The notes below the pieces were generated by a model, which had not been told where the DNA came from, did no database searches, and worked only from the letters and a program-made list of their open reading frames with translations. This document shows positions 775 to 11,981 of a stretch of DNA of 64,000 nt, piece by piece (the first letter of the stretch is position 1; each line of letters starts with the position of its first letter). The position numbers and the translations under genes are program-made. The stretch is taken from the NCBI RefSeq assembly GCF_001298525.1, contig NZ_CP012678.1:2604001-2668000 (forward strand), given 5' to 3'. Source of the stretch: Psychrobacter urativorans. GTDB lineage: Bacteria; Pseudomonadota; Gammaproteobacteria; Pseudomonadales; Moraxellaceae.

Positions 775-798
775 AAGCCGGATTTAGTCCGGCTTTTT
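775..798 (+). terminator. Bidirectional intrinsic terminator
   Basis: Perfect 8-bp stem (AAGCCGGA pairing with TCCGGCTT) around a 5-base loop, followed by a T run on the plus strand. An A run precedes it, so it also works for the minus strand. It separates the TetR gene from the converging surface-protein locus. Confidence 0.9.
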
Positions 799-873: not shown

Positions 874-1749
874 TTAATAAACAACGTTATAAGTAGCGGT
901 AGGAACGGGCATCGGAATGGTTATTGTTTGTGATATATATAACTTATGACTGTCCATTTTTTGACCACGACAAATATCGTCTCCTGTATCTAAAGGTGTG
1001 TACTGTTTAAAGTAACGGTTAATCAGACTTTCAAGTTCCACATTAGTCTCTGAATCATGAGCGTTGACGTAAGCTTCACGCGCCTGTTCAAGCCAGCGAT
1101 CAGCCATGCGAAAATGCGTTCCCGATTGTCTCCAGCCGTGCTCGCATTGGTCAGCCGCTGCCCAAACGAGAGCGACTTCACTAAATGCCAATTCGCGTGG
1201 TGCTGCGCTGATACCACCACTATCCTTTAATGCATTCAGCGTTGCCCAAAGGTCGGGGCGCATCAACGCTGACGTCGTTGGAATATCCGTGGTGATACTT
1301 AATTGTTCATCTGTGCCGTTTTGTAGCGCTGCTAATAAAAGGCTGCCTGCTTGTAAGGCTTGGCTGCCCGCTGCGCTTCTACTTTTGATGCTGTCTTTAT
1401 GATAAGCATAGTTCAGCCACGCTTGTGCCTTATAGGCAAGATAGTGCTGACGTGCGGATTTGTCGTCTTGCTGATAGACCTGTAACTGCATGAGCATACA
1501 GTCTATGGTGCGCTGTTGTGAGCTTTGCTGCGGTGAGAGAGTCTTGACATCTCTAACGCCATCACTAGGGCAGTGAGCAGCCGCACGAATAGAGCGGACA
1601 ACTAAAATATCACTAGCGTTACTCTTATTAACGCTGGCAGCGTGTGTCACTGGCACAGCAGCTATTAACAACAACGCTGAATATACAGCTCTAGACGGTA
1701 GCCGCTGCAAAATATATTTTGTCGCTAGAGTGGTAAGGTTAAATATCAT
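874..1749 (-). CDS. Exported hypothetical protein, last gene of the surface locus
   Basis: A 291-aa protein that I do not recognise. Residues 1-38 form a long signal peptide: basic positions, a hydrophobic stretch SALLLIAAVPV, then an Ala-rich cleavage site near THAASV. The mature part is mostly helical by composition. It has four cysteines in the contexts AAHCPS, TIDCML, DQCEHG and DDICRG, which could form two disulfides in the periplasm. It follows the 1764-aa barrel gene by 121 bases on the same strand, so it may be its periplasmic or outer-membrane partner. That is an inference from position only. The start has AGG five bases upstream. Confidence 0.8.
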   Translation of the reverse strand: MIFNLTTLATKYILQRLPSRAVYSALLLIAAVPVTHAASVNKSNASDILVVRSIRAAAHCPSDGVRDVKTLSPQQSSQQRTIDCMLMQLQVYQQDDKSARQHYLAYKAQAWLNYAYHKDSIKSRSAAGSQALQAGSLLLAALQNGTDEQLSITTDIPTTSALMRPDLWATLNALKDSGGISAAPRELAFSEVALVWAAADQCEHGWRQSGTHFRMADRWLEQAREAYVNAHDSETNVELESLINRYFKQYTPLDTGDDICRGQKMDSHKLYISQTITIPMPVPTATYNVVY

Positions 1750-1870
1750 ACAAACCTGCTTTTATAATGAGCCATGTAATAGCTAGTATCAAAGATGATA
1801 CTGATGATATGGTCTATAATCTATAGTGTTTTGTAAGACAAAATCAACCATGTCGCATCAAGAATAAACG

Positions 1871-4800
1871 CTATAGCGTGGTCTTAGTGGTGAGTCGATT
1901 GTTTTTTTGGCTGTCGTGGCGCTTAAATAAATCTTCATCAAACTTAAAGCGTAGTCTAAAATAATACCCTTGTTGCGTACTGTCGTCATAGGCGATATCT
2001 TCATCTTCAAAGCCCATAAAGTTGTAGCCAAGTGATAGCCATAGATTGGTCATCGGACTATAGCCAACTTCGGCACCAAGCAGATAGGATAAGTCAGCTG
2101 CTTGCTTATTCCAATACGTACCTGCTTGCAGCCCCACATCCCAACGCTCACTAATGTCATAGACACTACGAGCAGAAATAGCATGGGCAGTGTTATCACT
2201 CGTCATACCGTCAGCAGCATACTTAGTATATTTACCGTTATAGTGTCCAGATAAGGTGAGTGGGCGGGTTGGATGGTAGTTGCCGCTCCATGACCAAATC
2301 ACCGCATCTTTTTGGTAGGGATCATCACCGGTTGCATTGTCATCTAGACGATACTCAAGTTTAGCCAGCATATCGAGCTTGGTGCTATCCTGCTCGCGGT
2401 AAGCCGCACCTAGCTGAAAGCGGTTAATGGCACGATGACCATCATCATAATCGACGCGTGAATAAATATCTTTTGCCAATAAGGTAACGTTATCCGTATA
2501 ACGATAGGCAATGCCTGCACTACCCAGTACCGTGTCACTGGTTTCCCCCCAACGCTGCTCAAAACGTCCGGAGGCTTTGTAGTTTTCTTTAGCAAGATAC
2601 TCAATCCCAAAACCAGCAGCGGTGGCGGTAGTATCTTTTTCACCTTCAAGCGATTCGACGCGCTCAAATAAGGTGTTTAAGGTTAAGCCTTTTTGCACAT
2701 ACCATTTATTTTTAAGACCAATGGCAGCTTCAGCTTCGCGGGCGCTAATGGCATCACGGGCGCGGTATTCACTGTAGACTTTACCGTCTTTCATATAAGT
2801 GGCATCAAAGCCAAATACAGTACGTTGGCGCTCATCAGTATCATCCAAACCATAACTGCCAGATAAGCTATTGATTAAATCATGGCGGGCATACAGACGA
2901 CCTAAATTACCAAGAGACGTTTCACCACCAATAGAGGTGGCATTGCGGGCGCTTTGGTCAATATCTTGCTCATATTCTGCAAACAGTAGAGCATTATTTA
3001 GCTTGGGCAGACGGGTCGTGAGGCGGGCGCGAACAGTCGTGCCTTCAATGTCTTTGTCTGAGTTATTAACGCCGTTAAGAGGAGATTGATTAATAATATC
3101 GTTGTTGATTATGGTGTCATTGGTGATATCGACTACATCGGTTGCTGCTTGGGTATTACGTGAGGCAGCCGTCGCGTCTTGCTTATAATAACGCAACCCA
3201 ATTTCACCAGTGATATTTTTGCTAAGGCGTTGTTCAATACTGGCTTGGATGCCCTCAACACTGGCTTCAGTGGTATGGTCTTTGGTGCGAATACCTTCAA
3301 GCTTTAGTGCTGTTTTCTTATTCGTGAGGGCGTGAGTAACTTCTATACCTGATTCTGTACGCCCAGCCGTTAAAGGCGATGCGCCGGTAACAAAGCCTTT
3401 ATCAGCATCGTTATAGTAGGCTTTGGCACGGGTATTTTTCTTATTATCATAATTCAGCTCAATGCGTAAAGCATCACCCTCCACATTATTGTCTGCTAAT
3501 GGTGTGGCATTGATTTGATTGCTTGCTTGGTAATTTGGATTCTCAGCCTTATTTTTGGCATATTCAGCTACCAATTTCAATTTATTATTAAAGTGAATCA
3601 CGCTGTTAATGCTGGCAAGTTGTTCTTTATTGAGTGGGTCATCACTATGAATGTAGCTACCACCAATCGCCAATTTATTAGTCACTTGTTGTTTGGCTGC
3701 CACACCACCAACCCAATAGTTGTCACCGCCTTGATCTACTTCAACGGTGACACGTAGGTAAATAGGATTACCATCAAAGTCCTGACTGGCAATCGGCGCT
3801 TTTAGGTATAAGCTACGGCTGATAGGATCGATTTCATAATCGGCAAAGCGTGTTAGGGTCTCGCGGCGAATAATCAATCCGGGGTTGTTGGCATCACGAG
3901 TGATGACTTCAATAGTTTCTGAATTTTCAAGGACGGCATCGAAATTTTCAGCAAGCGGATAAGGTCCTGAAATACCAAGCCCACGAGTCTCGTTAACCCG
4001 TTGCGATGAGCTGGTCTCAGCGACGAATGCGGTAATACGAGTATTAGTGTCTTCATATTGGGCTTTGATACCCGTTAGAGTACGATTGTATTGCCCAAGT
4101 TTAATGCCATCATCATTATCAATTTGTGTTTTTAAATCGCCATACATCGCAAATGAGCGACCTTTATCCAGACGCACATAGAGCTTGCTAGTCGATTGCG
4201 CATCAAAGCCTTTGGCTGAGGAATCACCATATACCGGATAGTATTCGCCCGGCTCGATATCGCGGAACAGACGTTCACCTTTTTTATCACTGTCATAAGC
4301 TAAGGTGAGAAGATAATCGCCGCGCACCTTACCTTTTAAGAACATCGCCGCACGACCTGTAGCGGCATAGTCATCATTACCCGCAAACTCGTGCAGCTCT
4401 TTTTCAAACGCTCCTTGAGCGTCAGTGATATTGTTACCATCAAAGTCTTTGAGCGCTATCACGCCTTCAACGATACCAACGGCAATAAGGGGGCGCAATT
4501 TGGCAGTAAACTGTAGCGGAATAATTTGCTTGCTGCTGCCAGTATCGATGATTAGTTCGCCTTTACCGGGTACGCTTGGCGCTATGATAGGAATGAGTAG
4601 TTCACCACCATTAACCGTTATTTGCGTGCCCGCTTGGTCTTTATTACTGTCTTGTAGGTTGATACGCCCAATATTGGTATCGATGGTCATTGGCGTTGAT
4701 GAAATATAAGGACGGTTATCACGGTCTTTTAGGCTAATGACAACTTGGTATTCGCTGATGCCATCGGCTTCTACTAACGTTTGCTGGGTACGGTAGTCAA

Positions 4801-7165
4801 TAGCTTGTAAGCTATCTGGCGCTATCACTTCGATAGTTTGTTCAGAGATGACCTTACCATTGATATCTGTTGCCACACCGCGTAACGTATTGCTACCGCG
4901 CTTTAGCTCGACAGCATAATAGTCAAATGCGGTGACGTTTTGCTTTTCTTGTTCAGCGGTTTTACCAATTTGTTGTTCAGATACCATTTTGCCATTGGCA
5001 TATAAAGTGAATTCTGAGCCTAGCGGTGCTTGGACTTGTACCAGTTGCTTATATGATGCCAGTTGTTGACCTGTACTTAAATTAATAAAATGGACGTTAT
5101 TATTTACGATCTCTTTGAGGTATTCTTCCAACTTTTCTGCTTTTGGTGGGGCAATGAGGGCAACGCTCATATCTGCACGTCTGCTGTTAGCATTTGCCAT
5201 ATCTGCAACAATGGCTGAATCACAGGTAATGCCTTGGTCTAAATGATCGTTCGACTTACAGCCGCTAGCATCGATATTGTCATTGCGATTACCATTATAA
5301 TCTGGCTCTAATATCAGCTCGCTTTTGACCGCTTGCTCTAGCGTATCATTTTTGGCATTGACACTTTTGCTACGTGCAATAAGCTGTTCGTTCAGGCTGG
5401 CAGTGCTGTCTGCCATACCGCCCACCAAAGCAAAGTCGGCGCGATGAAGCTCACCATATTTTAAATCGACAAATCGGCTACCCGCATCACCCGCATTACG
5501 GCTACTTTGGGTGATCAGTTCTGTGCCAGTCGGTAGCGTCGTGCGGTCGACTTTCAAGACGTGAGTCTTAGCATTGATACCATAGAAGTTATATTTACCT
5601 TCAGGATCGGTAACGACAAAGTTGCCGTTTTCCATATAAATACGCACACCTGCGACACCAAGCTCGCCATTCTCTTTTTGCTGAATGCCATCACGGTTAA
5701 TATCGTGGTAGATTTTACCGACAATAATCCCATCAGTATTCATAACGCCACGGCTGACATCAATTGCCCATTGCGCTTCTCTGGACACGAATACTTGATT
5801 GCGCTCATCGCGAGCGTATGCGGTCGCACGGTTGATACCATCACCGCCTAATGAGGATGACCCAACTAATACGCGGTAAGTGATTTCTTGACTCGTGCCA
5901 ACATCCATATTGCCTAAGTTTAAGACTTGATATTTACCATCGGCTTTAAACTCAGTCGTTTGAGCCTTATTGATATTGATGTTGCCTTTATTATAGCGTA
6001 CGGTGCCTTTGACATAGTCGAAACCACGCGGTAGTGCGTCTTTTAACTGCACGTTATGGGCAGTCGCTGCGCCATCATTAGTGACTTTGATGGTGTAGTT
6101 GACATAGTCACCAAGCTCAGCACTTCTAACATCACTTTCTTTGATAATCTGTAGGCTAGAGTTTTTATTAACGATATCGATTTGAGTGCTATAACCGTTG
6201 ATATAAGTCAGGTCAGATTGGATTGGTTGTTCATCAATACCAACAGATGGCGCAATACAAGCGACTAACTGAGCGGATAATTTGTCGCCCCGTAACGTTT
6301 GAATGGTTTTATCGTTAATTTTATTAGCATTATTTTGTGTTGGTGCTGATAGACGATACTTGCCCGTATTATTGCCTGATTCGATGGCTTTGAGCGAATA
6401 AGTGTCACCCGTCATTGGTGAGGTAATAGTCAGCCATACTTGGTCAGGCTTATTCGGTTGTACGTTACATTGTACGTAACTAGCTTCAATAAAAACATCC
6501 TCACCAACCTGTGAGCTATTTCTACGTTCATTAAAATCAAAACTAGTGAAGTGAATACTGGGTGCAACAATAACCAGTTTATTGGTTATAGCCGCCATTA
6601 CTGATTTATCTTCAACTACCACCGCCCTGATTTTGATATCAGCGGTATCGCCGTCGCGAGCATTGCTATCAGTAAGCGCTTGAATAATAAGTTGGATGCT
6701 CTCGCCTTGAGCAATTTTAAGTAGATTGGGATTGATGAGTAATAAATCATCAGCATCAATAAGACCGTTTTTATTGATGTCTTGATAGACTTTTAAATTG
6801 GATAAGCTGCTTGGGTAGTTATAGCTTAAAGCAAGGGTTTGGTCGAAAGTGCCATTATTGGTTAGAACGTTTACCCATTCTGCCGTACTGCCAAGCCCAA
6901 TAGTTTGTAATGGGGATTGCGTAATGCTGATGTCATATATTGGCAGCGTATAGGCTTTAAGGTTAACCTTGTTTGATAGGGCATATTGTTGAATATCAGT
7001 GTCAACCATATAGCTGACACTAGCGATATTGTTCACATCTATAACGCCTTTACCATTTTCGGCATGGGCGATATTTGCTTGCGTAAGTAGAATCGATGTG
7101 GCTAACGTAGTAAGCGCGCCAATACGGCAACGTGGGTTACAAGACGAAGACACAGCGTGGTGCAT
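1871..7165 (-). CDS. Giant outer-membrane beta-barrel protein with DUF11 and SdrD-B-like domains
   Basis: 1764 aa. Domains in order: signal peptide (1-36, cleavage near AHAENG); an N-terminal module with the signature ASVSYMV; a DUF11 (conserved repeat) domain at about 340-450 containing LGDYVNYTIKVTNDGAATAH; an SdrD-B-like Cna-type domain at about 485-580 (GKIYHDINRDGIQQKENG, then TDPEGKYNF); an Ig/invasin-like linker to about 930; and then roughly 800 residues of alternating aromatic/polar beta strands. The last strand, GYYFRLRFKFDEDLF, looks like an outer-membrane insertion signal, though a short polar tail follows it. I infer surface display of adhesin-like domains from an outer-membrane barrel. 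AGGA lies 9 bases before the start. Neighbouring genes encode other DUF11/SdrD-B proteins. No plug or TonB box was recognised, so it is probably not a classic TonB receptor. Confidence 0.85.
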   Translation of the reverse strand: MHHAVSSSCNPRCRIGALTTLATSILLTQANIAHAENGKGVIDVNNIASVSYMVDTDIQQYALSNKVNLKAYTLPIYDISITQSPLQTIGLGSTAEWVNVLTNNGTFDQTLALSYNYPSSLSNLKVYQDINKNGLIDADDLLLINPNLLKIAQGESIQLIIQALTDSNARDGDTADIKIRAVVVEDKSVMAAITNKLVIVAPSIHFTSFDFNERRNSSQVGEDVFIEASYVQCNVQPNKPDQVWLTITSPMTGDTYSLKAIESGNNTGKYRLSAPTQNNANKINDKTIQTLRGDKLSAQLVACIAPSVGIDEQPIQSDLTYINGYSTQIDIVNKNSSLQIIKESDVRSAELGDYVNYTIKVTNDGAATAHNVQLKDALPRGFDYVKGTVRYNKGNININKAQTTEFKADGKYQVLNLGNMDVGTSQEITYRVLVGSSSLGGDGINRATAYARDERNQVFVSREAQWAIDVSRGVMNTDGIIVGKIYHDINRDGIQQKENGELGVAGVRIYMENGNFVVTDPEGKYNFYGINAKTHVLKVDRTTLPTGTELITQSSRNAGDAGSRFVDLKYGELHRADFALVGGMADSTASLNEQLIARSKSVNAKNDTLEQAVKSELILEPDYNGNRNDNIDASGCKSNDHLDQGITCDSAIVADMANANSRRADMSVALIAPPKAEKLEEYLKEIVNNNVHFINLSTGQQLASYKQLVQVQAPLGSEFTLYANGKMVSEQQIGKTAEQEKQNVTAFDYYAVELKRGSNTLRGVATDINGKVISEQTIEVIAPDSLQAIDYRTQQTLVEADGISEYQVVISLKDRDNRPYISSTPMTIDTNIGRINLQDSNKDQAGTQITVNGGELLIPIIAPSVPGKGELIIDTGSSKQIIPLQFTAKLRPLIAVGIVEGVIALKDFDGNNITDAQGAFEKELHEFAGNDDYAATGRAAMFLKGKVRGDYLLTLAYDSDKKGERLFRDIEPGEYYPVYGDSSAKGFDAQSTSKLYVRLDKGRSFAMYGDLKTQIDNDDGIKLGQYNRTLTGIKAQYEDTNTRITAFVAETSSSQRVNETRGLGISGPYPLAENFDAVLENSETIEVITRDANNPGLIIRRETLTRFADYEIDPISRSLYLKAPIASQDFDGNPIYLRVTVEVDQGGDNYWVGGVAAKQQVTNKLAIGGSYIHSDDPLNKEQLASINSVIHFNNKLKLVAEYAKNKAENPNYQASNQINATPLADNNVEGDALRIELNYDNKKNTRAKAYYNDADKGFVTGASPLTAGRTESGIEVTHALTNKKTALKLEGIRTKDHTTEASVEGIQASIEQRLSKNITGEIGLRYYKQDATAASRNTQAATDVVDITNDTIINNDIINQSPLNGVNNSDKDIEGTTVRARLTTRLPKLNNALLFAEYEQDIDQSARNATSIGGETSLGNLGRLYARHDLINSLSGSYGLDDTDERQRTVFGFDATYMKDGKVYSEYRARDAISAREAEAAIGLKNKWYVQKGLTLNTLFERVESLEGEKDTTATAAGFGIEYLAKENYKASGRFEQRWGETSDTVLGSAGIAYRYTDNVTLLAKDIYSRVDYDDGHRAINRFQLGAAYREQDSTKLDMLAKLEYRLDDNATGDDPYQKDAVIWSWSGNYHPTRPLTLSGHYNGKYTKYAADGMTSDNTAHAISARSVYDISERWDVGLQAGTYWNKQAADLSYLLGAEVGYSPMTNLWLSLGYNFMGFEDEDIAYDDSTQQGYYFRLRFKFDEDLFKRHDSQKNNRLTTKTTL

Positions 7166-7295
7166 AATTAGTAATCCTACTTATGAAAGAAAATAGTAAA
7201 TGAAAACTGAAGGTAGAGTTTCCCTAACGAGTATTAGGAAATACTCTCTAAATTATCAGGTTAAATAAAGTGGCAAATAATATATAAAGATATGA

Positions 7296-9340
7296 TTACT
7301 TTGTGCCTGCTTGAGATATTTTAGTAGAAAATAACAGTGTACCTGCCTCTTGACCTTTTAACGTAGCAAATGTACCCACAAGATTAGGGCTAGTAAAGTT
7401 TATAGATGCACCTAGAGAGCCTTTACTAGTTTCAGATTCTGCACCGCTTGTGTACGTTACTTTAGCTGGTATCTCATCTCGGATAGCAATAGTATTGAGA
7501 TCGGTACCAGTAAAGGTATTGGTGGCGACCAGTTTATAGTAGATACAGTTACCAGGCTTCGCGATGCTGCTATCAGTGATGTCAGTTTTCACCCAGCTAG
7601 CAGGCGCGATAGTCGTTAGTGCTGTTCCACAGGTGTTAGCATATTGGTACTTTTCTAATTTAATACCTTGCATCGTAATTGTGGTAGATTTTTCACCCGC
7701 TATCGGTGCTGCTGTACCTTGTAATGCACCTTGGGCTGTGACAACCACTTTCATGGTTTCGGATTTACCAAGATCACTAGCGGTAGGAGTTGCATTGTCA
7801 GCACCAGTAGTGTTCACTTTTACTAGTATTTTTACTGCCTCAGTAGGGGCAGGGGCTAAGCCTGTCTTGCCTAATGCTACTAAAACATCATGTAAATCAT
7901 AATTCTCAGTACCACCTACTTTAGTTAACTCTACATCGCCACCGCTAAAGACGCCGTTACCGTCTACATCTACATATACCTTCTCAATAGCCACTTTAAG
8001 GTTATCTACGGTAGGCGCAACAGTAAAGTACACTTCTCCGGCTGTTTTTGCTTCTGTCAGATCTATGCCGTTATTTGTTATCGTATAGCTGTAATAACTC
8101 TCACTTGCTAAACCTACTTCTTTATTATCGCCGCCAGTGAGGTCGATTTTGCGACTTTGATTGGAAGCAGTGACGTTGGCAGCTGTATTGTCATCTTTAC
8201 CTTTATCTTTAAAGAGTGAGCCAGCTTTAACCGTCTCGTAGTTATTCTCTGTTAGAGCACCATGCGCTTGGTCATCAGAGTGGTCGATAAGATCAAAGGT
8301 AGCGTCATTGTTAGTACTGTCTTTGACGGTTGCATAGTTGTTGAACTCACTTGATTTATCCGCACCTTCCGCTTTTTTAGCACGGAAGGTAATAGTAATG
8401 ACTTCATTAGCTGCTATATCTAAACCAGATACAGTAATGGTTTTTCCTGCTGCTGTTATGATAGGAGCTGCTTTAGAGCCAGTTATAGATGACTTAGTAG
8501 TGGGTGCTTTATAGTTGGCGTCTGGTGATAGTATCGCTACTAAACCGCTTGGTAGCTCATCTACAACGGTGACCTCACTGCCTGTAGCGTTACCTTCGTT
8601 TTTGACTGTAATCGTATAATCAACGAATGCACCTGAATTATTTAAATCTAGGTTTCTATTATTAAGACCTAAATTAGTAGATGCTGATTTGTTAATGGCG
8701 TAGATAGGAGTTGCGGTCGTAGCAGTGTCAGTATTAACCGCAGTATATTTTTCTGGTGTAGTATTTGTAGACTGTGCTCTTAAATAGGCACTGGCTGCGC
8801 TAACCGTAAGTTTACCAATATCATCAATACGACTCTTAGTTGCAGATGTCTCTTTTTTAGCGACAATCTCAATATCGGCATATTGTCCTGCTTCTAGTGT
8901 GATCTGTTTGTTAGCAGGAAGATCAATTGCTGCACCTGCACTATTTATTTTATAGGTAATCTTACTGGTTGTAAGATCGTAATCGAAGTCATCGCCTGTA
9001 GCGATATTGGCAATATCAATGGTATAGGTATCTGTAACGTTACCGGCATTCGTAAGTTTATGCGTAAAGGTCACGTTCGACTGTGCTTGTGGATTAATAG
9101 TACCCGTACGATCAGTGTCTAAAGTAAATGAGCCGGTTTCAGATACTGTGACTTTTACTATATTTGAAACAGCAGTCTGTGGAACACCGGCAACCATATA
9201 GCTAGCGGTTGCTTGGTTGTCACGTTAAAACTTGCAGAGCCCCCGCCAGAAGGACCCGCTGAATTAGCGATACTCGCTAGGCCCATAGCAGTAACAATAC
9301 CAACGGTTAATACTGAATATTTAAATAAGCCTGACTGCAT
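7296..9340 (-). pseudogene. DUF11-repeat exported protein, split by a one-base frameshift
   Basis: Two overlapping reading frames form one protein of about 680 aa. The first, from the ATG at 9340 (GAGGA 8 bases upstream), encodes a signal peptide (LTVGIVTAMGLASIANSAGP) and stops being sensible after SASFNVT. The second continues with NQATASYMVAGVPQTAVSN and runs to 7296. Joining them at about 9218 restores the motif shared with the giant barrel protein, and needs one extra A in the ACAACC context. The body has several DUF11-like domains (for example VDYTITVKNEGNATGSEVTV). The C-terminal module has two cysteines (ANTC and GNCIYYK) and is also found in the 615-aa protein. It could be a true frameshift mutation, a phase-variable state or a sequencing error; no -1 slippery heptamer is seen. 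Confidence 0.8.
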
Positions 9341-9384
9341 TCGGTGATTCCTCAAAAGTATACAACGTAGAATAGTAATTAAAT

Positions 9385-9849
9385 TTAGTTAACAATAGTA
9401 TTTAGGGAAACGTCTGCTGATTTTTTTGCTGGTAACAATTTGATATTCCAGCGCAGCGCCTTGTATTCTGATAATGGGATTTTGACTACTTTGCCATTTA
9501 CTTTACGCATGAGTGGCATATCGGCATAGTTCTTCCCATCGACAGTCGCTTGCGCACTATTAGGTTTCGCTTCACCCGTAAATGTCATATTGGCAGGGAT
9601 GGGTAAAGTGACAGCAACGTCACTAATAGGCTGCTCGATAACATTGGTATAGACGGCGCGATATTGTACCGTTTCGCCTGTTTTAGCGTCGGAGGCGGCA
9701 ACATAGATTGCTTTACCGTTAGCGGCTTTAGTGATTTTACTGGCTTGAAGCTCCATTTTTAGAGCATCTGCCGCTTGGGCGCTACCGAAAACAGCAGTAA
9801 ATATCAAGACCGTTAAAAATAATCTTTTCAAAGCGTATGTGGTTTTCAT
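9385..9849 (-). CDS. Small exported DUF11-like protein
   Basis: A 154-aa protein starting at the ATG at 9849. AGGA lies 8 bases upstream, and the longer frame reaching 9900 has no better signal. The signal peptide spans residues 1-27 (FLTVLIFTAVFGSAQAAD). The mature part is essentially a single DUF11-type beta-sandwich: GETVQYRAVYTNVIEQPISD is the characteristic 'conditions of concern with others' strand pair, followed by VTLPIPANMTFTGEA. No membrane anchor, barrel or cysteine is present, so it should be a soluble periplasmic or secreted protein. It sits 45 bases before the split DUF11 gene. I infer a subunit or chaperone-like accessory role; no enzyme function is indicated. Confidence 0.85.
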   Translation of the reverse strand: MKTTYALKRLFLTVLIFTAVFGSAQAADALKMELQASKITKAANGKAIYVAASDAKTGETVQYRAVYTNVIEQPISDVAVTLPIPANMTFTGEAKPNSAQATVDGKNYADMPLMRKVNGKVVKIPLSEYKALRWNIKLLPAKKSADVSLNTIVN

Positions 9850-10133
9850 AGTAAATTCCTGGTCATATAAAAGGTTTGTAAGAATACAAGCCTTATTCAA
9901 CCGAGCAAAGAGAGGTAGTAAATTTACATTATAATCAACAGATAAATTACGTATACTTGGTGTATATTAATGTATTGTTAATGTAATTTTTTGATTATAT
10001 ATAAATTATTGAAAATACGAAGAGAAACCTCTATTTGCTAGGTAAAAATCAGATAAGTGGGGGATAAAGTAGATTTAGCGGTAATACATACGAAAAGTTT
10101 CTTGTAGAACTATAATCGAGTACTAACTGGTTT

Positions 10134-11981
10134 TTAGTTCGATTGAGTCGAACCATATTGAGCGTTGAAATAAAAGGAACGGTTAGCCTGAGCTAATAAA
10201 GGAAAGGCAACGGTTTTAACAGTACCATTTTGTCCTACCACGAGAGTATCTGTAAAATCCGTAGATACACGCTCAGGAAGGGCTAGCAATGAGGTAACAT
10301 TAGCGTTTTTTACGCCTTTTTCCTGTAGTGTATCCTGTACAATAATGTCGCTAATATTAATATTAGCGCGATTATGTGCCGTTATTTTGTATGCAATACA
10401 TTGACCGAGTTTAATGTCTGCTCCTACGCCTATATCAGAGCTAGTAAGCGCATTTTTACTATAAGTTAGAGCAGTAAAGTTAGTAAATGTGCAGGTGTTA
10501 GCTGATTGCTCTTTGACCAATACAAGCGCGCCATTTTTATCGATGACACGCCCGAAGTCCTGCTTAGGATAGTCTTTGGTAGTACCATTTAGCACGACTG
10601 TTCTGGTACTTGATGATGTTGCATTAGGATAATTTACTGGGCGGACAGTTTCTGTAATACAGACATCTCCTGTGATACTAGTAGTTGGTAGAATAAATTT
10701 ATAAAATCCTACAGCATCGGTAGTGGTTATCGCGTAAACAGTTTTTGAGGGGCTAGCGCAATTATTTAGCTCAATGGTGCTACCAGTGATACCATTTTCC
10801 CCAGTATCTAAAATTCCATTAAAAAATTTATTGTTAGCATAAATGCCTCCTACCAGCAGTGGATCAGCTTGGGTATCATTAATACCGCCATTATCATTGA
10901 ATACTTTGCCTGAGAAAGTATAATTTGGCGTACCTTCTACGCCAAAGCTGATCCACTCACTATAGGTTTCACCGAATACGTCAGATGTTGAGCCGGTATG
11001 ACCATTCATGATACCTTCATAAGTCAAAGTTACCGATTTTGCATTTTCGACGGCTATAACATAGGTGCTATTTATATTTGAAACCCCATAACTGACATAA
11101 CTGATGTTTTTGGCTAGGGTAGTATTTTCACTTAAAACAGCATATGTATCTTTTTGTGCTTCAGATTTTAATATATCTTTGAAAGTTGGCATAGGTGGCA
11201 GCTGACCTTTCCTAAATCCGGTCTTAAATTCTACGAATTCGTCATTCAACGTTAATTTATAAGGAGGAGGAGGAGTCGTTCCAGCCTCTTTTAAATTTGG
11301 TATAGCAAAGTAATAAAGTTTATTAATAGGGATTGTGCCAGCAGGACCACTATCATTTTGACGGAGCTGAGGTGCACTGGTGCTTTGATTGGCAAGGAAA
11401 GTATCTATTTTACCTTCGAACTTTGCTCCCATGAAGTAGTCGCCCATGGCATCATAATAATAATCAGCACTAGAGTTTTGTTTAACAAAAGCCCTTACTG
11501 GTATAGCAGTGTTGTCACTTTGTGCAAAATCTAGAGTCTGACGAGCAACCTCTGAGTTACCCGTTGTTGCATAGCTTGCTTGACCAATTTTAATCGTATG
11601 TATGGATTTTGGATCATCGGGAGTAATGGTAAAAGTATATGTAAATTTATCTTGTGAGACGGTGGTAGTGACCTCATTTTTAATTTCAATACCGTTCATA
11701 CCTTGCATACCGTCGGTAGTAGGTGTGAAAGTCATGGCGTTATAACCACGGGTTTCATTACGTATAATTGTAAAGCTACCAGTCGCTCCTTGTGAAGTTA
11801 TATAAGTGCCGTTAGCAGTCCCATTTGTTACATTTCGACTGGTTATTTTAAATTGTCCCATGTTTTGAGGGGTAGCATGAGATATAAGCGGCGACAACAT
11901 CATTGCGAATACGACTGTATATTTTGCCCATGCTAAATAATTGGCTAAACTATTAGCTGTAAATACAAAGCAACCAGTCAT
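10134..11981 (-). CDS. Exported SdrD-B/DUF11 surface protein, first gene of the locus
   Basis: 615 aa. The signal peptide spans about residues 1-36 (VVFAMMLSPLISHATP). Residues 37-340 are a beta-rich region that I cannot assign. An SdrD-B/Cna-B-like domain lies at about 355-455 (FSGKVFNDNGG, then DAVGFYKFILP). The C-terminal DUF11 module at about 485-610 carries paired cysteines (SANTC and GQCIAYKITAHN) and matches the C-terminal module of the split protein at 7296-9340. There is no barrel, sortase motif or C-terminal anchor. AGGATGATTT precedes the ATG. It is likely secreted or held at the surface with its neighbours. It is 284 bases upstream of the small DUF11-like gene, so the two may be separate transcripts. 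Confidence 0.85.
   Translation of the reverse strand: MTGCFVFTANSLANYLAWAKYTVVFAMMLSPLISHATPQNMGQFKITSRNVTNGTANGTYITSQGATGSFTIIRNETRGYNAMTFTPTTDGMQGMNGIEIKNEVTTTVSQDKFTYTFTITPDDPKSIHTIKIGQASYATTGNSEVARQTLDFAQSDNTAIPVRAFVKQNSSADYYYDAMGDYFMGAKFEGKIDTFLANQSTSAPQLRQNDSGPAGTIPINKLYYFAIPNLKEAGTTPPPPYKLTLNDEFVEFKTGFRKGQLPPMPTFKDILKSEAQKDTYAVLSENTTLAKNISYVSYGVSNINSTYVIAVENAKSVTLTYEGIMNGHTGSTSDVFGETYSEWISFGVEGTPNYTFSGKVFNDNGGINDTQADPLLVGGIYANNKFFNGILDTGENGITGSTIELNNCASPSKTVYAITTTDAVGFYKFILPTTSITGDVCITETVRPVNYPNATSSSTRTVVLNGTTKDYPKQDFGRVIDKNGALVLVKEQSANTCTFTNFTALTYSKNALTSSDIGVGADIKLGQCIAYKITAHNRANINISDIIVQDTLQEKGVKNANVTSLLALPERVSTDFTDTLVVGQNGTVKTVAFPLLAQANRSFYFNAQYGSTQSN

Follow-up and report, generated by a model that had tools for sequence, protein, structure and literature searches.

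The window analysed here is a stretch of 64,000 nucleotides from Psychrobacter urativorans (contig NZ_CP012678.1, positions 2,604,001 to 2,668,000). Close to its start lie five minus-strand open reading frames (ORFs), flanked by a convergent tetR (7-738) and by aceE (from 12666). They belong to a conserved gene set that recurs in many Pseudomonadota and appears to encode a surface chain held by a giant outer-membrane barrel. The original prediction for this DNA had described five exported proteins, built from DUF11 and SdrD_B-like modules around an outer-membrane barrel, as a self-contained display or fibre-assembly system. The features are listed below with the genes in the order of transcription (positions in the window; aa, amino acids).

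10134..11981, minus strand: head protein (615 aa), with a leader-like start, a variable N-terminal part, an SdrD_B-like stretch at residues 388-429 (below cut-off) and a conserved C-module at about residues 485-615
9385..9849, minus strand: small helper (154 aa), with a leader-like start and one DUF11-like domain
9158..9340 (approximate), minus strand: leader-like stretch with which the link gene would open, in a frame that differs from that of the body ORF (judged by eye)
7296..9197, minus strand: body of the link protein (633-aa ORF), with an N-module of the barrel-protein kind, DUF11 at residues 187-299 and a C-module in common with the head
1871..7165, minus strand: giant barrel protein (1764 aa), with a leader-like start, an N-module, DUF11, SdrD_B and immunoglobulin (Ig)-like domains and a C-terminal barrel
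5813..6154, minus strand: DUF11 (CLIPPER) domain of the barrel protein, with K342, D376 and N445 as an isopeptide-type triad
1874..4528, minus strand: predicted outer-membrane barrel part, residues 880-1764 (about 885 residues), from the structure model and its fold matches
874..1749, minus strand: tail protein (291 aa), without the OmpA domain that several distant relatives have at the C-terminus
775..795, both strands: terminator-like hairpin in the gap that separates tetR from the convergent tail gene (by consensus match only)

The number and strand of the ORFs are as predicted, and a leader-like N-terminal stretch, judged by eye, opens four of the five. The leader-like stretch of the link gene lies upstream of the 633-aa body in another frame, and the window copy therefore looks like a broken gene or a sequence error; in relatives, the leader and the body of the link share one frame. 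Terminator-like sites in the region number 15 against 9.4 expected from shuffles, and promoter-like sites are no more frequent than in shuffled sequence (32 against 32.8).

The locus is conserved in the genus. The barrel has a match in 85 of 100 Psychrobacter genomes, the window's own included, mostly at about 76% identity, and at least five of the 85 (G007, G049, G065, G076 and G085) hold fragments only. In 20 neighbourhoods examined by tblastn, aceE and tetR flank the locus, and duplications as well as losses are seen. A scan of genome contigs yielded 79 loci, 46 of which show both aceE and tetR. The exact order head-helper-link-barrel-tail is present in 37 of these 46 and is recognizable with broken ORFs in three more (L103, L105 and L107), while six (L046, L067, L072, L082, L083 and L098) are without some part at the threshold used. 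The gene order is kept, in other words, in 40 of the 46 two-flank loci, and scattering of the genes was not seen. The barrel occurs without an intact link in four of the 46 (L046, L067, L082 and L083). In L046, L082 and L083 the N-module of the barrel protein has lost its Ig part, and L046 keeps a remnant of the first 73 residues of the link. Three loci (L021, L022 and L025) have two head-helper-link sets ahead of one barrel, and in one genome (L039, L057) a helper-link-barrel set precedes a head-helper-link-barrel set. The links form two classes, with identities to the window link of about 39-47% and 25-33%. In a genome of the same genus that has no barrel match, a lone helper gene stands beside aceE (L172, 8238-8780), perhaps as the relic of a lost locus.

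The two ends of the link resemble two different partners. Segments from the Psychrobacter families were compared with hhalign in all 28 pairs. The sets for the N-module and the middle of the link excluded the window link and one truncated link, and the barrel set excluded the barrels of L035-L037. The link N-module matches the N-terminus of the barrel protein (probability 98.0, E 2e-13) and the link C-module matches the C-terminus of the head (probability 98.6, E 4.7e-16). Beyond these, the only pairs to exceed 25 were two that involve the middle part of the link itself (89.5 and 91.0); the remaining 24 stayed below that value. In a motif scan that excluded link ORFs shorter than 560 aa and barrel ORFs shorter than 1600 aa, the N-module motif was present in most links (72 of 77 ORFs, three of the five exceptions being truncated at the end of the locus) and most barrel proteins (72 of 76 ORFs); elsewhere it was found in 2 of 75 helpers and in none of the 57 heads, 73 tails, 48 aceE genes, 62 tetR genes or 769 other ORFs. 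The link thus has both end modules, the head one and the barrel protein the other, which is the anatomy of a chain, and the link looks like its middle. Four residues of the helper (N69, P85, D104 and W134) are invariant across 16 rows.

The members of the set diverge at different rates. Among eight segments compared in 46 full-set loci, the mean amino-acid distance is lowest for the barrel core (0.146) and highest for the N-terminus of the head (0.743), with the helper (0.24), the tail (0.40), the barrel N-module (0.41), the two ends of the link (0.54 and 0.61) and the head C-module (0.54) in between. Partial Mantel correlations given the barrel core (46 loci) are 0.48 for the head C-module with the link C-module and 0.25 for the head with the helper (permutation p 0.0002 for each). 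The helper lies between head and link, yet the head covaries more with the link. This covariation is a hint rather than proof because the loci are related and linked.

DUF11 and SdrD_B domains had been predicted in three or four of the genes, and two of the proteins carry them over cut-off. The barrel protein contains DUF11 (PF01345) at residues 338-451 (E 1.1e-14; 55.1 bits against a cut-off of 24.6) and SdrD_B at residues 485-553 (E 1.3e-7), and the link reaches 34.5 bits for PF01345; these two DUF11 matches are the only ones in the genome. The helper is marginal for DUF11 (15.5 bits against 24.6 in Pfam; 23.9 against 24 for TIGR01451), and the SdrD_B match of the head is below cut-off (23.9 against 29.7 bits). 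At E values up to 1, Pfam gave no DUF11 match for the head or the tail and no match whatever for the tail. Among 20 heads scanned, 16 contain SpaA_3 (best E 2.8e-48; the window head is not among the 16) and seven contain SpaA_4. Both domains are known from Gram-positive pilins. The triad of the barrel-protein DUF11 (K342, D376 and N445) is kept in every row of the two alignments (15 and 26 rows), and in the link the lysine is kept in 26, the aspartate in 32 and the asparagine in 32 of 34 rows. The barrel triad aligns with Lys715, Asp748 and Asn806 of 9IFR, the DUF11/CLIPPER domain of the Acinetobacter silvestris adhesin B9T28_05395 (PMC12617251), and an internal isopeptide bond in the barrel-protein DUF11 is likely. 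The part of that paper drawn on here describes isopeptide-type DUF11 proteins as widely distributed among Gram-negatives and counts SpaA_3 as an isopeptide family in its DUF11/CLIPPER survey.

The C-terminal half of the barrel protein has no barrel name over cut-off in Pfam or NCBIfam, and a profile of the barrel family had no match among Protein Data Bank (PDB) sequences at E values up to 1. The head profile likewise matched nothing there, and the helper and link profiles gave weak matches; PHROGs yielded a single weak match, to the helper. A first AlphaFold2 model (residues 589-1764) had a mean predicted local distance difference test score (pLDDT) of 60.8 and a predicted template modelling score (pTM) of 0.45, with pLDDT values of 74-88 in the stretch ahead of the barrel, which is Ig-like by fold matches. 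A barrel-only model (residues 880-1752; pLDDT 64.4, pTM 0.57) is without defined structure in its first 140 or so residues; from model residue 255 onward it has 32 strands with an average length of 12.5. The best 50 of its 719 Foldseek matches are outer-membrane barrels, judged by title and, for 6r2q and 4q35, by the chain and by the identity of the protein, respectively; SprA comes first (6h3i, E 8e-7), followed by MtrB, LptD, TonB-type receptors and SlpA. A C-terminal barrel of about 800 residues had been proposed and a model of the barrel alone suggested as its check; about 885 residues are modelled as a barrel, and the fold matches agree with the proposal.

The tail and the arm ahead of the barrel are connected by the distribution of OmpA domains. 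An OmpA domain (PF00691) ends five of seven tail homologues scanned with Pfam and precedes the barrel in three of 11 distant barrel ORFs scanned (L158, L164 and L167). The barrel ORF of L164 holds two OmpA domains. A profile built from the seven tails and three barrel ORFs and run over 33 loci placed OmpA in the tail gene of nine loci and in the barrel ORF of five different ones (L158, L159, L164, L167 and L169, with L159 and L169 detected by the profile alone), never in both. This exclusion ties tail and barrel together. It also suggests a peptidoglycan-facing position for the segment immediately ahead of the barrel, and the arm is therefore more likely to be periplasmic than displayed.

The gene set extends far beyond Psychrobacter. 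Counting those of the window itself, 51 genomes in a sample of 398 from Pseudomonadota, and 30 of 212 genera, have a match to the barrel profile; the helper profile matches 60 of the genomes, many of them weakly within large proteins. Strong matches (at least 100 bits for the barrel, E 1e-20 or better for the helper, from lists copied by hand from the tables) were found in 41 genomes for the barrel and 38 for the helper; 31 genomes have both, 10 the barrel only and seven the helper only. A strong helper is present in 31 of the 41 strong-barrel genomes versus seven of the 357 others, with a Fisher p of 8e-31 that ignores relatedness, two families supplying many of the genomes. In Acinetobacter, helper-link-barrel occurs in 11 of 11 loci, six of which have a tail above threshold. 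The gene upstream, cut by the start of the locus, has SpaA_4 and DUF11 in both cases scanned and SdrD_B over cut-off in one. Three distant loci (L151, L154 and L157) have the helper, a link-type protein and the barrel, and several others have helper and barrel. In L150, L155 and L156, a separate barrel ORF overlaps an upstream ORF that matches the N-terminal part of the barrel protein, and in L150 this upstream ORF has DUF11 and SdrD_B. A tree of 31 barrel cores places the window among Psychrobacter; its deep part is long-branched and unsure. The genome of the window also contains two stand-alone helper paralogs outside the window (L170, 9339-9920; L171, 8775-9662), with no barrel or link match nearby.

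Several known systems resemble parts of the locus. SprA of the type 9 translocon is a giant single-chain barrel and the first match of the barrel-only model, but the TM-score is 0.21 and the identity 8%, and the barrel profile matches no PDB sequence. The last point also separates the barrel from SlpA of the Deinococcus S-layer deinoxanthin-binding complex, which has the highest query TM-score among the matches listed (0.31). SlpA is a giant barrel tethered to peptidoglycan, and we know of no DUF11 partner genes for it. Chaperone-usher pili are alike by analogy (a tip, a link, an outer-membrane barrel and a small Ig-like helper) but differ in that their usher and PapD-type families are not represented among the five proteins here (Pfam, E up to 1), in keeping with the predicted lack of such a pair in the locus. 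Usher matches in the genome are confined to two fragments with which contig C3 opens (35-1364), apparently a separate system. The absence of a sortase was also predicted correctly, with no match to PF04203 in the genome and matches of the same profile in three of 14 control genomes. Classification as a sortase or chaperone-usher system was rejected on these grounds, and tests for the families that define sortase, chaperone-usher and autotransporter systems all came out negative for the gene set.

The DUF11/CLIPPER fibrillar adhesin of A. silvestris (B9T28_05395) shares the Lys-Asp-Asn triad (phmmer E 2.5e-7), but in the part of the source used it is one chain of 2129 aa with an OmpA-like end (PMC12617251), whereas the domains here are spread over several genes and joined to a giant barrel. 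The archaeal thread filament is a chain whose putative cap subunit can join at one end only, as seems to hold for the head and the barrel protein here; it differs in having no barrel and in its demonstrated donor-strand joining (PMC9715654). The type 11 secretion system (T11SS) was rejected as a candidate: the consulted portion of the relevant paper concerns DUF1194 and mentions DUF11 once (PMC12282271), and no T11SS Pfam family occurs in the five proteins. The F-ENA anchors contain DUF11 but, judging from the portion of the source consulted, belong to another system (PMC11952670). The original prediction knew of no described system of this composition, and none was found in the open-licence literature of PubMed Central, which misses most subscription papers. 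The domains are already known, and the locus is best placed with Gram-negative surface-fibre and adhesin systems, with a fair chance that it forms a class of its own.

The evidence leads to a model, which we consider evenly balanced between right and wrong, in which a giant barrel tethered to peptidoglycan anchors, and perhaps exports, a chain of DUF11 proteins with a variable tip, giving an envelope-spanning surface chain or fibre. The barrel would sit in the outer membrane as the anchor and probably as the export pore, with an arm of about 850 residues (N-module, DUF11, SdrD_B and Ig-like domains) in the periplasm. The tail protein would tie this arm to the peptidoglycan, through OmpA in relatives. 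The two end modules of the link would serve for docking, to the barrel arm on one side and the head on the other; the head would bear the variable, outward-facing tip, and the small single-domain protein may be a periplasmic helper, either chaperone-like or a connector. The predicted self-contained system is partly supported, in that it fits the shared end modules, the co-occurrence of barrel and helper and the OmpA fusions. Its composition is revised to a chain of head, link and anchor with a small helper and an OmpA-type tail, in which the 615-aa head is the variable part.

Several observations weigh against this model. Both structure models of the barrel are of moderate confidence, and the query-normalised TM-scores among the matches listed are at most 0.31, leaving the strand number and the closure of the barrel unsure. 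Glycosidases and Ig-domain proteins make up most of the 50 matches listed for the first model, SprA accounting for four of them, and hydropathy alternation in the strands of that model is no different from that in random windows (14 of 35 versus 33%). No usher is among the best 50 of the 719 fold matches of the barrel-only model. In L067 the N-module of the barrel protein is retained although link, head and helper are all missing, and helper paralogs exist as stand-alone genes. The window tail has no PF00691 match (Pfam, E up to 1), and the profile scan found no OmpA domain in L160-L166 except L164. The covariation of head and link may stem from linked recombination and shared ancestry.

There are three rival explanations. 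In a purely periplasmic scaffold, the barrel, the DUF11 proteins and the tail would tie the outer membrane to the peptidoglycan without export or a surface fibre. The presence of OmpA in the tail or barrel ORF of 14 of the 33 loci, and of SlpA with its tether among the fold matches listed, would suit such a scaffold, but the strong divergence of head N-termini (0.743) next to a conserved barrel core and the pilin-type SpaA_3 (16/20) and SpaA_4 (7/20) domains in heads speak against it, and we consider it unlikely. We give still less credence to an autotransporter-like display, in which the barrel would carry only its own N-terminal DUF11/SdrD_B half outward and the other genes would encode separate adhesins. 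Adhesin-type domains and a C-terminal barrel do stand in one chain; however, no autotransporter barrel family matched any of the five proteins in Pfam at E values up to 1, the model has about 32 strands whereas autotransporter barrels have 12, and OmpA precedes the barrel within the same ORF in five relatives, which suggests a periplasmic arm. Equally improbable is the explanation that the proteins are independent surface antigens at a hot spot beside aceE, with shared modules that reflect only duplication of DUF11 genes. Duplications and losses of the cassette and the stand-alone helper paralogs would fit such a hot spot, but in Acinetobacter and distant Pseudomonadota the same genes are found together at sites other than that beside aceE, and neither the co-occurrence of barrel and helper nor the OmpA exclusion agrees with independence.

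A bolder version of the chain model, which is possible but doubtful, would make the locus a member of a new class of Gram-negative surface-fibre machine that is widespread in Pseudomonadota. In such a machine, a peptidoglycan-tethered barrel of SprA size with a periplasmic DUF11 arm would use paired end modules to take up links and variable heads, which it would extrude as an isopeptide-stabilised chain, aided by a single-domain DUF11-like chaperone, with no need of a sortase or an usher. If the chain model is true, Pseudomonadota would possess an export and anchoring route that uses pilin and adhesin modules of the Gram-positive type without sortase or usher, and a large family of barrels that lacks a barrel name in Pfam and NCBIfam would gain a function. 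It would also become testable how DUF11 proteins of the isopeptide type reach the Gram-negative cell surface and stay there.

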